A stretch of DNA of 51,168 nt from Deltaproteobacteria bacterium (GTDB lineage: Bacteria > Myxococcota_A > UBA9160 > UBA6930): assembly GCA_016875395.1 (NCBI GenBank), contig VGRF01000032.1, positions 1 to 51,168 on the forward strand, written 5' to 3'. Position numbers and translations under genes: made by a program. Positions 36,686-42,721 of this stretch are shown piece after piece. Below the pieces are notes generated by a model. That model saw only the letters and a list, made by a program, of their open reading frames with translations, was not told the DNA's origin and searched no databases. Position 1 is the first letter of the stretch. The number at the start of each line of letters is the position of its first letter.

Positions 36686-37804
36686 ATGCCTGCGGATTTC
36701 GTTTTCACCGACGAGCACCAAGAGCTGCGCAAGACGGTGCGCGCGTTTCTCGACAAGCGTTCGGACGAGAAGGCCGTGCGCGCGACGATGACGAGCGAGC
36801 GGGGCTACGACCCTGAGGTCTGGAAACAGCTCGCGGAAGAGCTCGGCCTCGTGGGGCTGATCATTCCCGAGCAGCACGGCGGCGCCGGCTTCGGCGCGGT
36901 CGAGCTGCTGATCGCGATGGAAGAGATAGGGCGCTCGCTCCTGTGCGCGCCGTATCTCGGCACGTCGGTGTTCGCGGCGAGCGCGCTGCTCACCTGCGCG
37001 AACGAGGTGGCGCAAAAGGAGCTGCTGCCGAAGATCGCGTCGGGCGCGTGCATCGCGTCGGTGGCGCACGCCGAGCCGAACGGGCGCTGGGACCTCGCCG
37101 GCGTCACGCTGCGGGCCAGCGGCTCGGGCGCGACCGTGACGCTCACGGGCGAGAAGACGCTCGTGCTCGACGGCCACGTCGCGAACGTGCTGCTCGTGGT
37201 GGCGCGCACCGACGCGGGGCTCGAGCTGCTGCGTGTCGACGCGAACTCCGCGGGCGTGACGCGCAGCGCGATCCCGCCGCTCGACCTCACGCGCAAGCTC
37301 GCGCGCGTGTCGTTCGCGAACACGCCGGCGACGCGCATCTCGAGCGGCGACCAGACCGCGAACTTGGGGCGCGTGCTCGCGCTGGTGTGCTCGGCGCTCG
37401 CGGCGGAGCAGGTGGGCGGCGCGCAGAAGGTCCTCGACATGGGCACGGAATACGCGAAGACGCGTCTCCAATTCGGCCGCCCGATCGGCAGCTACCAGGG
37501 CATCAAGCACAAGCTCGCCGAGATGCTCGTGAACGTGGAGATGGCGAAGAGCGCCGCTTACAACGCGCTCTTCAGCTACGCCTCGAACGAGCCCGACTTC
37601 GTGGAGGCCGCCGCGCTCGCGAAGGCCTACTGCAGCGAGGTGTACTTCCGCGCTGCCGCCGACAACATCCAGATCCACGGCGGCATGGGCTTCACGTGGG
37701 AAGCCGCGCCGCATCTCTACTTCAAGCGCGCGAAGGCGAGCGAGCTCCTGTTCGGCGATGCCGCGCATCACCGCGAGGAGCTGGCGAAGCACGTCGGGTT
37801 GTAG
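36686..37804 (+). CDS. Acyl-CoA dehydrogenase, partner-type
   Basis: A 372-residue acyl-CoA dehydrogenase homologue. It begins DFVFTDEHQELRKTVRAFL, has LGLVGLIIPEQHGGAGFGAV in the helical domain, a reduced middle domain, and YAKTRLQFGRPIGSYQGIKH plus IQIHGGMGFTWEAAPHLYFK at the C-terminal end. This is the profile of the smaller partner in steroid-type heteromeric enzymes, similar to the gene at 20696. The ATG at 36686 follows AAAAGGA. It probably cooperates with the upstream dehydrogenase at 35299. Substrate unknown. Confidence 0.88.
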   Translation: MPADFVFTDEHQELRKTVRAFLDKRSDEKAVRATMTSERGYDPEVWKQLAEELGLVGLIIPEQHGGAGFGAVELLIAMEEIGRSLLCAPYLGTSVFAASALLTCANEVAQKELLPKIASGACIASVAHAEPNGRWDLAGVTLRASGSGATVTLTGEKTLVLDGHVANVLLVVARTDAGLELLRVDANSAGVTRSAIPPLDLTRKLARVSFANTPATRISSGDQTANLGRVLALVCSALAAEQVGGAQKVLDMGTEYAKTRLQFGRPIGSYQGIKHKLAEMLVNVEMAKSAAYNALFSYASNEPDFVEAAALAKAYCSEVYFRAAADNIQIHGGMGFTWEAAPHLYFKRAKASELLFGDAAHHREELAKHVGL

Positions 37805-37874
37805 TCGGAGGGCGCCTTGGTTTGCAGCGCGCGCCCACGCGGGTCAGAGTGCCTCCATCGAGGAGGCCGCCTGC

Positions 37875-39086
37875 ATGTACGACCGCCGCGAATTCCTCTT
37901 CCGCAGCGCCGCACTCGGTGCAGTCCCTCTCGTCGCGACGCTCGGCGTCGACGCGGCGGGCGCAGCGCAGCCGCCGCTCGCGCCGCAGGTGCGTCGCAAA
38001 GTCCCGCTAGGGCGAACGGGGCTCCTGATCCCTGACATCGGCTTCGGCGCCTCGCGCCTCTCGGGCGACGTTGCGCTCGTGCAGCACGCGCTCGCGCGCG
38101 GCATCACCTACTACGACACGGCGGAGAGCTACGCAGGCAGCGAGTCCGAGTCGACGCTCGGCCGCGCGCTCGCGGGGCGGCGCGACGAGGTGGTGCTCGC
38201 GACGAAGACTCACGGCGGCGCGCACACGTCGCGCGCGGAGCTGATGGCGTCGCTCGATGCGAGCCTCGCGCGGCTGCGCACGGATCGCGTCGAGGTCTTC
38301 TTCAACCACGCCGTGAACGGCACGGATCGGCTGCGCAACGAGGAGTGGTTCGAGTTCGCGTCTCGCGCGAAGCAGGCGGGCAAGATCCGCTTCACCGGCA
38401 TCTCGGGCCACGGCGGGAACCTCGTCGAGTGCCTCGACCTCGCAGTGGCGGAGAAGCTCGTCGACGTCCTGCTCGTCGCGTTCAACTTCGGGCAAGACCC
38501 CGCGTTCTACGAGCGCTTCACGGGCAGCTTCGACTTCATCGCGACGCAGCCCGAGCTGCCGCGCGTGCTGAAGAAGGCGAAGGCGAGCGGCATCGGCGTC
38601 GTCGCGATGAAGACGCTGCGCGGGGCACGCCTCAACGACATGCGCCCGTACGAGCGCGGCGGCGCCACCTTCGCGCAGGCCGCCTTCCGCTGGGTGCTCG
38701 CGAGCGGGCTCGCCGATGCGCTCGTGGTCACGATGAGCAGCACGGCGCAGCTCGACGAGTTTCTCGGAGCTTCGGGGTTCACGGCGCTTCACGCTGAAGA
38801 CGCCGCGTTGTTACGGCGCTACGCGAAGCGCAGCGAGACCACGCAGTGCCGGTACGGCTGCAGCGACTGCGCGAGTGCGTGCCCGCTCGGCGTCTCGATC
38901 CCCGACGCACTGCGGCTACGCATGTACGCCGAGGACTACGGCGCGCCCGAGCTCGCGAGCGAAGCACGCGCCGAGGCGGGGAACCTCGGCGCGTGCCTCG
39001 GCTGCGACGGCACGCCGTGCGCGAGCGCGTGCCCCCACGGCGTCGCGATCGACGTGCTCGTGCAGCGCGCGGCGCGGATCTCCTGA
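37875..39086 (+). CDS. Tat-exported aldo/keto reductase with C-terminal ferredoxin domain
   Basis: A 403-residue protein. The N-terminus MYDRREFLFRSAALG is a twin-arginine signal, so the folded enzyme is probably exported. Residues 38-320 form an aldo/keto reductase barrel (Asp and Tyr in YYDTAESYAGSESE, Lys in VVLATKTH, His in VFFNHAV). The last 85 residues have two cysteine clusters, CRYGCSDCASACP and CLGCDGTPCASACP, that can bind two [4Fe-4S] clusters. This suggests electron transfer through the Fe-S domain and not NADPH in the periplasm. AGGAGG stands 8 bases before the ATG. TTGTTACGG lies at 38808-38816 (Leu-Leu-Arg). Confidence 0.88.
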   Translation: MYDRREFLFRSAALGAVPLVATLGVDAAGAAQPPLAPQVRRKVPLGRTGLLIPDIGFGASRLSGDVALVQHALARGITYYDTAESYAGSESESTLGRALAGRRDEVVLATKTHGGAHTSRAELMASLDASLARLRTDRVEVFFNHAVNGTDRLRNEEWFEFASRAKQAGKIRFTGISGHGGNLVECLDLAVAEKLVDVLLVAFNFGQDPAFYERFTGSFDFIATQPELPRVLKKAKASGIGVVAMKTLRGARLNDMRPYERGGATFAQAAFRWVLASGLADALVVTMSSTAQLDEFLGASGFTALHAEDAALLRRYAKRSETTQCRYGCSDCASACPLGVSIPDALRLRMYAEDYGAPELASEARAEAGNLGACLGCDGTPCASACPHGVAIDVLVQRAARIS

Positions 39087-39927: not shown

Positions 39928-40788
39928 CTAGTCGCGGTCACCCATCACCGTTCGCCAGCGCGCGAGGAAGCGCTCGGCGTCAGGCTCCGCATGCAGCCGC
40001 ACCCACTCGTCGTCCGAGAGTGCGGCTCGTCCCGCGAGATTGCGCGCGGCGTCGCGGCCGACTGGCCAACGCAGCCGCGCCTCGCGCGACTCCACGGCGT
40101 CGGCCACCACTTCGCCCACGAGCTCCGCGCTCGAGCCCACCTCGGCATCGCGAGTGAAGACGGCGCCAGTGCGCGCATACAGCCCCTGATAACTCGTGCC
40201 GCGCGGCCACGGCGTCGACTTTTCCTGCGCCGCGGTGAACGTGAGTCCGGGCTCCACGATCGCGACGCGAATCCCGAGCGGCGCCAGCTCGAGGGCGAGC
40301 GCTTCGAGCGCGGCTTCCGCTGCGAACTTGGAGGCCGAGTAGGCCGCGTTCGTGGGGTGCACGATGCGCCCCGATTGGGACGTCACCGCAACGACCGCGC
40401 CGCTGCCGCGCGCGCGAAAATGCGGCAGCACGGCCTGCGCGCAGCGCACGATGCCGAGCACGTTCGTCTCGTAGAGCGCGCGGAACGTCGCGAGCGGCGT
40501 CTCCTCGAACGCCGCACCCGCGTGGAAGCCCGCGTTCGCGACGAGCGCATCGATGCGGCCGTGCGCCGCGATCGCGTCGGCAATCGCGCGCGCGACCGAC
40601 GCGTCGTCGGTCACATCGAGCTGCGCGAGCGAGACCGGCAGCGACTCGCGCTGCGCGCTCTCGCGCAGCTGTTCACCGCGCGCGAAGGCGCGCATCGTCG
40701 CCACCACGCGATGCCCGCGGCGCGCGAGCGCGAGCGCCGCGGCGCGACCGATGCCGGTGCTCGCGCCGGTGACGAGGACGACGCTCAC
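39928..40788 (-). CDS. Short-chain dehydrogenase/reductase
   Basis: A 286-residue classical SDR. It starts SVVLVTGASTGIGRAAALA, and has NAGFHAGAAFEETPL, Ser in VTSQSGRIVHP and Tyr-x-x-x-Lys in YSASKFAA. ATMRAFARGEQL after the second strand, with Arg, suggests NADP(H). The C-terminal part is longer than in FabG-type enzymes, as in 17-beta-hydroxysteroid-dehydrogenase-like members. The GTG at 40788 overlaps the VOC gene stop (GTGA), so the two genes are co-translated. Substrate unknown. Confidence 0.88.
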   Translation of the reverse strand: MSVVLVTGASTGIGRAAALALARRGHRVVATMRAFARGEQLRESAQRESLPVSLAQLDVTDDASVARAIADAIAAHGRIDALVANAGFHAGAAFEETPLATFRALYETNVLGIVRCAQAVLPHFRARGSGAVVAVTSQSGRIVHPTNAAYSASKFAAEAALEALALELAPLGIRVAIVEPGLTFTAAQEKSTPWPRGTSYQGLYARTGAVFTRDAEVGSSAELVGEVVADAVESREARLRWPVGRDAARNLAGRAALSDDEWVRLHAEPDAERFLARWRTVMGDRD

Positions 40789-41243
40789 TGCGCGCGAATC
40801 GCCATCGGGTGCTCGGGCTTCAGCACCTTCAGCAGCTCGATCACGTTGCCGTCGGGATCGCGGCCGTACGCGAACCACAGCTCGTCCGTCTTCTGCGCGG
40901 GGCAGTGGAACTTCATGCCGAGCGCCTCGCAGCGGGCTTGCTCCTGGTCCACGTCGTCCACGAGCAGGCAGATGTGCGTATAGCCGTGATCGCTGACGGG
41001 CCGGTTCTGGTTCTGCGGCGTCGGCGCCGGCTGCGCGAACTCGAACAGCTCCAGCATCGAGTCGCCGCTGCGCAGCATCGCCGCGCGGGCCGCAGAGTCC
41101 GGGAGCCCGAGCACGGCGTTGATCGACTTCACGCCGCGCGGCCAGCCCATGCCGTGGACGCGCTTGAAGTGGAAGACGCGCTCGTAGAAGTCGACGAGGC
41201 GGTCGAGGTTCGGCGTCGAGATCGCGGTGTGGTGAATGCGCAT
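40785..41243 (-). CDS. VOC/glyoxalase-family protein
   Basis: A 152-residue glyoxalase-fold protein. MRIHHTAISTPNLDRLVDFY gives the first metal-ligand His, and YTHICLLVDDVDQEQARCE opens the second module with another His. FAYGRDPDGNVIELLKV carries the typical final-strand Glu, so the metal site seems complete. Relatives are dioxygenases, epimerases or lyases. GAGGAG is present 6-11 bases upstream of the ATG. It is divergent from the selenoprotein gene (60 bases apart), so the two may share a control region. Confidence 0.85.
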   Translation of the reverse strand: MRIHHTAISTPNLDRLVDFYERVFHFKRVHGMGWPRGVKSINAVLGLPDSAARAAMLRSGDSMLELFEFAQPAPTPQNQNRPVSDHGYTHICLLVDDVDQEQARCEALGMKFHCPAQKTDELWFAYGRDPDGNVIELLKVLKPEHPMAIRAQ

Positions 41244-41303
41244 GGAGTCTCCTCTGCAGCGCATGATGCGGGCGCGATAGCCTCCGCGCATCGGGAGAGC
41301 GGA

Positions 41304-42200
41304 ATGGCCGGGATCACGCACCGCAGTTTCGTCAGCTACATCGATCGCACGCGCGAGTTCTACGCCGCGCAGGGCTATGCGAAGCCGTACGTGTGGGCGC
41401 GCAACGTCGACGCGCCGTTCGCGCGCCTCGCGAAGCCGCTCGCCGAAAGCCGCGTCGCGGTTGTTACGACCGCGAGCCCGTGGCGCGAGTGGAAGCCCGT
41501 CGACGGCGTGCTGCGCGGCGGCAAGCAGGTGTGGTCGGGCGCGACCGCAACCCCGCCGGAGCGCCTGTTCACGGACGATCTCGCCTGGGACAAGGAGGCG
41601 ACGCACACGCGCGACGTGGAGTCGTACGTTCCGCTGCGGCGCCTCGCCGAGTACGTCGCTGCGGGACGAATCGGCGCGCTCGCGCCGCGCTTCCACGGCG
41701 TGCCCACCGACTACTCACAGCGGCGCACGATCGAGCAGGACGCACCGGAGGTGCTGAAGCGCTGCCGCGAAGACGCGGTCGACGTCGCGCTCCTCGTGCC
41801 GCTTTGACCCGTCTGCCACCAGACCGTGAGTCTGGTCAGCCGCCACCTCGAAGCGAACGGCATCCCCACCGTGGTGATCGGCAGCGCGCACGACATCGTG
41901 GAAGAGTGCGGCGTCGCGCGCTTCCTGTTTAGCGACTTCCCGCTCGGCAGCCCGTGCGGCCGCCCTTACGACGCGGCGATGCAGCGCACGATCGTCGGCT
42001 ACGCGCTCGATCTGCTCGAGAGCGCGCGCCTCCCGCGCACGACGGTGCAGACGCCGCTGCGCTGGAGCGAGGACGAGGCGTGGAAGCAGCGCTACGCGCG
42101 CGTCGACGCGGAGCGAATCGAAGCGCTGAAGCGCGCGGGCGAGCGGCGGCGCGCGCAGCAGCAGGCGGCGAAGGACGACGGGAGCGTGCGGACGAGCTAA
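41304..42200 (+). CDS. Selenoprotein of the glycine/betaine/proline-reductase B (GrdB-like) family
   Basis: One 298-residue protein if TGA at 41805-41807 is read as selenocysteine (Sec168). The first part has THRSFVSYIDRTREFYAAQG, VAVVTTASPWREWKP and AGRIGALAPRFHGVPTDY. The second continues in the same frame as PVCHQTVSLVSRHLEANGI, then PTVVIGSAHDIVEECGVARF and PLGSPCGRPYDAAMQ. The junction is thus L-U-P-V-C-H, a U-x-x-C redox motif as in GrdB/PrdB, and the homology runs without a break across the TGA. A SECIS-like hairpin follows directly. It should be a thiol/selenol reductase, cytoplasmic, but it is shorter than clostridial GrdB, so its reaction is open. A plain reading would give a 167-residue fragment. 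GGGAGAG precedes the ATG. Confidence 0.82.
41805..41839 (+). promoter_or_regulatory. Sec UGA codon and bacterial SECIS-type hairpin
   Basis: After UGA (41805-41807) come 17 nt to the apical loop. ACCAGAC (41818-41824) pairs perfectly with GTCTGGT (41830-41836) around the 5-nt loop CGTGA. CTG (41813-41815) and CAG (41837-41839) can extend the stem past a 2-nt bulge. Known bacterial SECIS elements have a UGA-to-loop spacing of about 16-37 nt, a small loop, and a G among the first two loop bases; all three hold. The spacing equals that in E. coli fdhF as I recall it. It would recruit SelB with Sec-tRNA. Confidence 0.8.
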
Positions 42201-42721
42201 CGCGGCGCGACAGCGACCCACACGAGGCTCGGCACTGCACCCAGCTTCGCGTCGTGCGTGATGTAGTCGCGAGCGGAGTCGCGGCGCATGTGGAGGCGCG
42301 CCATCACGGCTTGCGAGCGCGCGTTGTCGGGACCGGTGTAGGCGAGCACCTCGCGCGCGCCGATGCGCGCGAAGAAATCCGCGAGCGACGCGGCCGCCGC
42401 TTCGCTGGCGAACCCGTGACCCCAAGCCTTGCGTGCGAGCCGCCAACCGATGTCAAAGTGCGCACCGAGCGCGTGCTCAGCGCCATGCTCGAGCACGCCC
42501 ACGTATCCGAGGAACTCGCGCGCGGGCGACTCCACGAGCCAGCGCGTAAAGCCGCGGTCCGAGAACGACGCGACGTAGCGCGCGAGCTTCTGCTCGGCTG
42601 CCGCTCGGGAGATGGGGCCGCCGTAGTCCCACATCACTTCGGGATCGACGCACAGCGCGATCAGCGCCTCGCGATCGTCCTCGCGCCACGGGCGCAAGCG
42701 GAGGCGCCGTGTCTCGATCAC
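42197..42721 (-). CDS. GNAT-family N-acetyltransferase (RimJ/RimL type)
   Basis: A 174-residue acetyltransferase. It begins IETRRLRLRPWREDDREALI, the usual RimJ/RimL-like start, and has IGWRLARKAWGHGFASEA, where R-K-A-W-G-H-G is the acetyl-CoA pyrophosphate loop. AYTGPDNARSQAVMARLHM is the C-terminal signature. It would transfer acetyl from acetyl-CoA to an amine, but whether protein N-terminus or small molecule is unknown. The start is GTG at 42721. Its stop overlaps that of the selenoprotein gene by three bases in convergent orientation, which confirms that the selenoprotein frame really ends there. Confidence 0.87.
   Translation of the reverse strand: MIETRRLRLRPWREDDREALIALCVDPEVMWDYGGPISRAAAEQKLARYVASFSDRGFTRWLVESPAREFLGYVGVLEHGAEHALGAHFDIGWRLARKAWGHGFASEAAAASLADFFARIGAREVLAYTGPDNARSQAVMARLHMRRDSARDYITHDAKLGAVPSLVWVAVAPR

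Follow-up and report, generated by a model that had tools for sequence, protein, structure and literature searches.

Does a reading frame broken by a single TGA, in the genome of a probably oxygen-respiring deltaproteobacterium, encode a selenoprotein and, if so, what is the function of a protein whose best-known relatives serve Stickland fermentation? The locus lies in a stretch of 51,168 nucleotides (the window) from contig VGRF01000032.1, which we call C32, of a 4.5 Mb draft genome (GCA_016875395.1) that is 96% complete. The original prediction had placed there a GrdB-like reductase carrying selenocysteine (Sec). The features on which the argument turns are the following.

40785–41243, minus strand: VOC/glyoxalase-superfamily protein (PF00903), divergent upstream neighbour; its pairing with the selenoprotein gene is not conserved
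41292–41298, plus strand: probable ribosome-binding site, GGGAGAG-like, 5′ of the ATG at 41304, predicted from sequence
41304–42200, plus strand: PrdB/GrdB-like selenoprotein gene, 298 amino acids, Sec at codon 168
41805–41807, plus strand: in-frame TGA, the Sec codon (U168 of the UPVC motif); TGA in all 97 subfamily sequences, replaced by TGC in Roseomonas and Haematobacter
41817–41837, plus strand: bacterial SECIS-type hairpin region, CACCAGACCGTGAGTCTGGTC, with nucleotide-level constraint and compensatory changes
42197–42721, minus strand: GNAT acetyltransferase (PF13302), convergent downstream neighbour; shares four bases (42197–42200) with the end of the selenoprotein gene

Translated with TGA as Sec, the frame runs from the ATG at 41304 to the TAA ending at 42200 as 298 codons with one TGA only, so that the TGA at 41805 is indeed its sole interruption, as had been claimed. 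The product contains the motif VPLUPVCHQTVSLV, followed by IPTVVIGSAHDIVEE, and the Sec residue stands in the context VALLVPLUPVCHQTVSLVSRHLEANGIPTVVIGSAHDIVEECG. The frame also stays open 5′ of 41304, giving a 332-residue ORF that ends at the TGA; the start was placed at 41304 because a GGGAG-like Shine–Dalgarno sequence precedes it and homologues start at a roughly equal position. Taken alone, the 3′ part is a 124-residue ORF (41826–42200), again in agreement with the original prediction, and the convergent neighbour does overlap the final stop, by four bases rather than the three first reported. Acyl-CoA dehydrogenases, a short-chain dehydrogenase, an aldo/keto reductase and an amidohydrolase make up the wider locus. 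The aldo/keto reductase (37758–39086, plus strand) has a C-terminal 4Fe-4S ferredoxin domain and, after its likely internal start, an RR-type signal-like stretch (MYDRREFLFRSAALGAVPLVATLG).

The UGA at codon 168 is almost certainly decoded as Sec. Judged from the genomes compared, the codon is set up for this decoding by the machinery of the host, by a SECIS hairpin and by the pairing of Sec with Cys among relatives. The host genome contains a tRNA-Sec with anticodon UCA (71.3 bits, over the cut-off) as well as selA (514.9 bits), selB (282 bits) and selD (261.7 bits), all over their curated cut-offs, so that the Sec machinery sought after the original prediction is present; selA exceeds its cut-off in seven of eight other carrier genomes. 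A scan of named genomes, which was unbiased toward TGA because its patterns did not contain the TGA codon, returned more than 550 relatives; the 80 best were retained, and the closest named relatives were deltaproteobacterial or Myxococcota metagenome bins. The set of 97 subfamily sequences used below comprises 77 of these best 80, 19 orthologues of other relatives and the gene under study. Its members are 52–81% identical to the selenoprotein and come from Myxococcota, Thermodesulfobacteriota, Pseudomonadota (alpha, beta and gamma), Actinomycetota, Chloroflexota, Binatota and Acidobacteriota; all 97, each with a recovered motif, have TGA at the Sec position within UPVC. Three further loci (L099, L106 and L107) fell outside the set through a low frame-filter score, and they too have TGA before PVCHQ. 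Among the matches listed for 61 relatives and for the 284 genomes of the phylum, every homologue has at least one in-frame TGA; the phylum sample was limited by a threshold (E <= 1e-20) that distant Cys homologues would escape, so that no Cys frequency follows from it.

Full-length homologues with TGC (Cys) in place of TGA, and hence with the motifs CPVC and CPIC, were found in the cultured alphaproteobacteria Roseomonas haemaphysalidis and Haematobacter massiliensis. They are approximately 50% identical to the selenoprotein, differ from it in the Cys residue and in the loss of the hairpin, and form one clade with the Sec subfamily (100/100 support); RefSeq names them 'glycine/sarcosine/betaine reductase selenoprotein B family protein' (WP_207415257.1 and WP_035710215.1). 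In Roseomonas haemaphysalidis (L142:5965-8350) the Cys form adjoins a gene with the annotation SelO (protein adenylyltransferase); in some organisms SelO also contains Sec. All relatives examined thus have either Cys or Sec at position 168.

That the TGA is instead a true stop followed by a pseudogene fragment, or a sequencing error, has a negligible probability. The standard reading of the codon, and nothing more, speaks for it; against it stand the TGA that all 97 orthologues share at this codon in several phyla, the Cys of other relatives and the SECIS constraint described below. Both sides of the TGA are homologous to other subfamily members, as the original prediction had supposed, which excludes chance; since the TGA is conserved across phyla, there is no sign of a base error, and sequencing error and pseudogene were rejected on this conservation.

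The hairpin downstream of the TGA is a bacterial SECIS element according to several lines of sequence evidence, which agree. It has a 7 bp stem, ACCAGAC/GTCTGGT (41818–41824 with 41830–41836), and a five-nucleotide loop, CGTGA (41825–41829), that starts 17 nt past the TGA. The corresponding codons +4 to +9 (CAC CAG ACC GTG AGT CTG) are nearly fixed in the subfamily, mostly well above what codon usage predicts: the Ser codon AGT occurs in 92 of 94 sequences, against approximately 8% expected from the rest of the same genes. Over 96 sequences, which are related, so that their stem cells do not count as independent events, 97% of the stem cells are paired, compared with 14–46% when the partner is slid by 1–4 nt. 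Eight sequences from one mostly alphaproteobacterial group show a double synonymous compensation, CAG/CTG to CAA/TTG, and paralogous clades have a hairpin at the same position with other stems (ATCAGTC/GACTGAT and ACCAGGC/GCCTGGT), while both Cys forms have none. A comparison of minimum free energies with those of synonymous shuffles gave a weak result (mean z −0.66; +0.33 for the gene under study), and for this reason codon-level conservation and covariation were used to assess the SECIS element.

Within the superfamily, the selenoprotein is by sequence nearer to PrdB than to GrdB. The best NCBIfam family is PrdB (TIGR04483; 85.4 bits, E 4e-24), without reaching the equivalog cut-off of 300, and the GrdB-type matches score 22–31 bits; of the description 'GrdB-like selenoprotein', the Sec residue therefore stands and the nearest family does not. 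When the subfamily profile was aligned by hhalign with PrdB of Peptoclostridium acidaminophilum (probability 99.7, 217 columns), the two Sec residues fell together, which places the TGA at the PrdB-type Sec position as anticipated. Over these approximately 217 homologous columns both proteins also share the residues xxCH after Sec and a conserved P-x-G-x-x-x-G-x-P element. They differ in the motif (UGTC in PrdB, UPVC here) and in length (237 and 298 residues); the selenoprotein has extra N- and C-terminal stretches, has no PrdA partner and is encoded outside a prd operon. With GrdB (PF07355) the homology covers the C-terminal half and the UxxC motif, whereas GrdB proteins have approximately 430 residues and a pyruvoyl partner, GrdE. 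The selenoprotein itself has no Pfam match, PF07355 included, a family that 29 of 43 subfamily members match weakly.

In a maximum-likelihood tree the homologues separate into subfamily A, which holds the gene under study and its Cys sisters, a clade with the motif UPLD, clade B with UPVCHQS and a short clade C with UPMCNQ, UPLCNQ or UPMCHQ. The host genome encodes two of these types, subfamily A and UPLD. The UPLD clade (100/100), which contains the host paralogue (L002, C2:319873-320625) together with L149, L150, L151, L153, L154, L156 and L160, has Asp in place of the resolving Cys of UxxC and retains the TGA and the hairpin sequence; a Sec-x-x-Asp member of the PrdB/GrdB superfamily looks unusual. 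A PrdB-like homologue in a distant member of the phylum (L167, G272:C316) adds one more form of the motif, UPYCC (UPYCCRSVGLV).

A rival reading is that the protein is a general thiol-disulfide oxidoreductase or a peroxidase that protects the aerobic cell, with UxxC used as in thioredoxin-fold selenoproteins. The motif itself and a host exposed to oxygen, as its haem-copper oxidase implies, would suit such a role. We consider it unlikely, given that the homology is to PrdB and GrdB, that thioredoxin and peroxiredoxin families are matched only marginally, by one to three members, and that the UPLD clade does without the second Cys. As this Cys is not required in at least one branch, Sec acting as a nucleophile fits better than plain dithiol exchange.

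A role closer to that of the named relatives depends on a partner subunit. In D-proline and glycine reductases the amine substrate forms a Schiff base with a pyruvoyl subunit, PrdA or GrdE. PF09338 matches both of these subunits. No match to PF09338 was found in the host genome, 96% complete, nor in the 284-genome phylum set (the host and 283 others), in which 53 genomes encode selenoprotein homologues. The standard control genomes have no PF09338 match, and a clostridial plasmid was therefore chosen as control: on P. acidaminophilum plasmid EAL2_808p the same search recovered PF09338 in three places, two of them strong matches and the third immediately 5′ of prdB, which makes the negative result meaningful, although a missing partner gene is still conceivable at 96% completeness. 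The Schiff-base step of pyruvoyl reductases is discussed in the study of FarB and FarE considered below (PMC10838667). A Paraclostridium bifermentans plasmid (L145, CP124691.1) encodes a Cys-containing PrdB (CGTC) that the gene table lacks; the partner of this PrdB matches PF09338 in pieces only, as if broken. Over the 97 loci no neighbour gene is conserved, the commonest cluster occurring in 14 of 97 and at scattered positions. The host genome also encodes the haem-copper oxidase subunit COX1, from which oxygen respiration is likely.

It follows from the lack of PF09338, the lack of a conserved neighbour and the haem-copper oxidase that Stickland reactions are very unlikely here, and so is a role as the D-proline or glycine reductase already known. 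PrdB is, to be sure, the best family match, with 217 columns of profile alignment; for a genuine component of a D-proline or glycine/betaine reductase with its pyruvoyl subunit, however, a TIGR04483 score of 85 where the equivalog cut-off is 300, the absence of PF09338 from host and phylum set under a working positive control, and COX1 in the host together with aerobic groups among the carriers leave scarcely any room.

Sequence searches found no solved homologue, and the fold was predicted with AlphaFold2 from 43 sequences, yielding a confident α/β model (pLDDT 92.8, pTM 0.91). In this model U168 lies between a strand (161–165) and a helix (169–184), at the N-terminus of the latter, a usual place for a reactive nucleophile. 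A Foldseek search of the PDB with the model returned nothing at E <= 0.001; the best VIA-align match, to LacI-type α/β folds, had a Z of 8.2 and Rossmann-like folds a Z of 6–8, which is background level and does not exclude unlisted families. The invariant residues comprise the UPVCHQT element, T55-T56, W95, T100-H101, D104, G193 and D197, and further R206, D211, P213-L214-G215, P217, G219, P221 and Q227.

The reading that we favour, with a probability of roughly 0.6, is that the protein is a stand-alone selenol reductase with a small electrophilic metabolite as its target. On the model of PrdB and GrdB, the selenol of U168 would attack an activated carbon, or another electrophilic atom, of this substrate and expel a leaving group. 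The resulting intermediate, a selenoether or a selenenyl species, would be resolved by C171 of the UxxC motif through an Se–S bond, which a dithiol such as thioredoxin may then reduce. Resolution through Se–S is not general in the superfamily, since the UPLD paralogues have Asp for the resolving Cys. Because no pyruvoyl subunit was found, the substrate would have to bring its own activating carbonyl, and an α-substituted carbonyl or a metabolite derived from a CoA thioester is a candidate type.

A special case of this reading would be the removal of a halogen or similar group from an α-carbon in detoxification or catabolism. In Cloacibacillus porcorum the GrdB-type Sec pair FarB/FarE has been proposed to reduce fluoroacetate, with C–F cleavage and a FarE that lacks pyruvoyl processing (PMC10838667). 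FarB, compared here by its description, resembles the selenoprotein, for which likewise no pyruvoyl partner was found, as a GrdB-type Sec protein proposed to act without a pyruvoyl-processed partner, but it belongs to an anaerobe, is encoded in a farACEB operon and feeds GrdA/GrdC. Since no conserved dehalogenation or transport gene adjoins the selenoprotein gene and FarB was itself inferred from transcriptomics, dehalogenation strikes us as distinctly unlikely.

More broadly, and only tentatively, selenol reductases of this kind may constitute a distinct family derived from the PrdB/GrdB fold, independent of pyruvoyl subunits, standing alone in aerobes and relying on Sec for the cleavage of a C–X bond in oxic catabolism.

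The selenoprotein is less new than first supposed, given that PrdB-type UxxC proteins were already known from oxic settings through two marine surveys (PMC1088965; PMC2398784). The Sargasso Sea study of 2005 ranks a PrdB-related UxxC family third in abundance among known selenoprotein families, with 42 genes (PMC1088965), and the GOS study of 2008 counts 235 Sec-containing PrdB members and 110 Cys homologues (PMC2398784). As described there, without subfamilies or partners, the ocean proteins share with the present one the relationship to PrdB and the UxxC motif, a match at the level of the family. A 'proline reductase' selenoprotein was listed for Anaeromyxobacter in 2006 (PMC1794560), and the use of Sec by aerobes is no longer surprising (PMC5029168). 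The protein is a further member of a known, uncharacterized PrdB-related family; no paper on the function of stand-alone PrdB-like forms was found in the open-licence literature.

The interest of a PrdB-like selenoprotein lies in its function. Surveys since 2005 have placed PrdB-type selenoproteins among the most frequent in surface-ocean metagenomes, yet a Stickland enzyme would be hard to explain in cells that respire oxygen. One large PrdB-related subfamily is now set apart, found without a detectable pyruvoyl subunit, and gene callers that treat every TGA as a stop will split its genes in two. The function of this subfamily is open to testing in culture, with Reyranella aquatilis KCTC 52223 as a Sec carrier and Roseomonas and Haematobacter as Cys carriers. 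The Reyranella copy has TGA and is 57% identical to the protein studied here, and that genome also contains selA. If the proposed family is real, cleavage of a C–X bond in a metabolite that brings its own activation, perhaps an acyl-CoA or an α-substituted ketone, would be a reaction not yet described.
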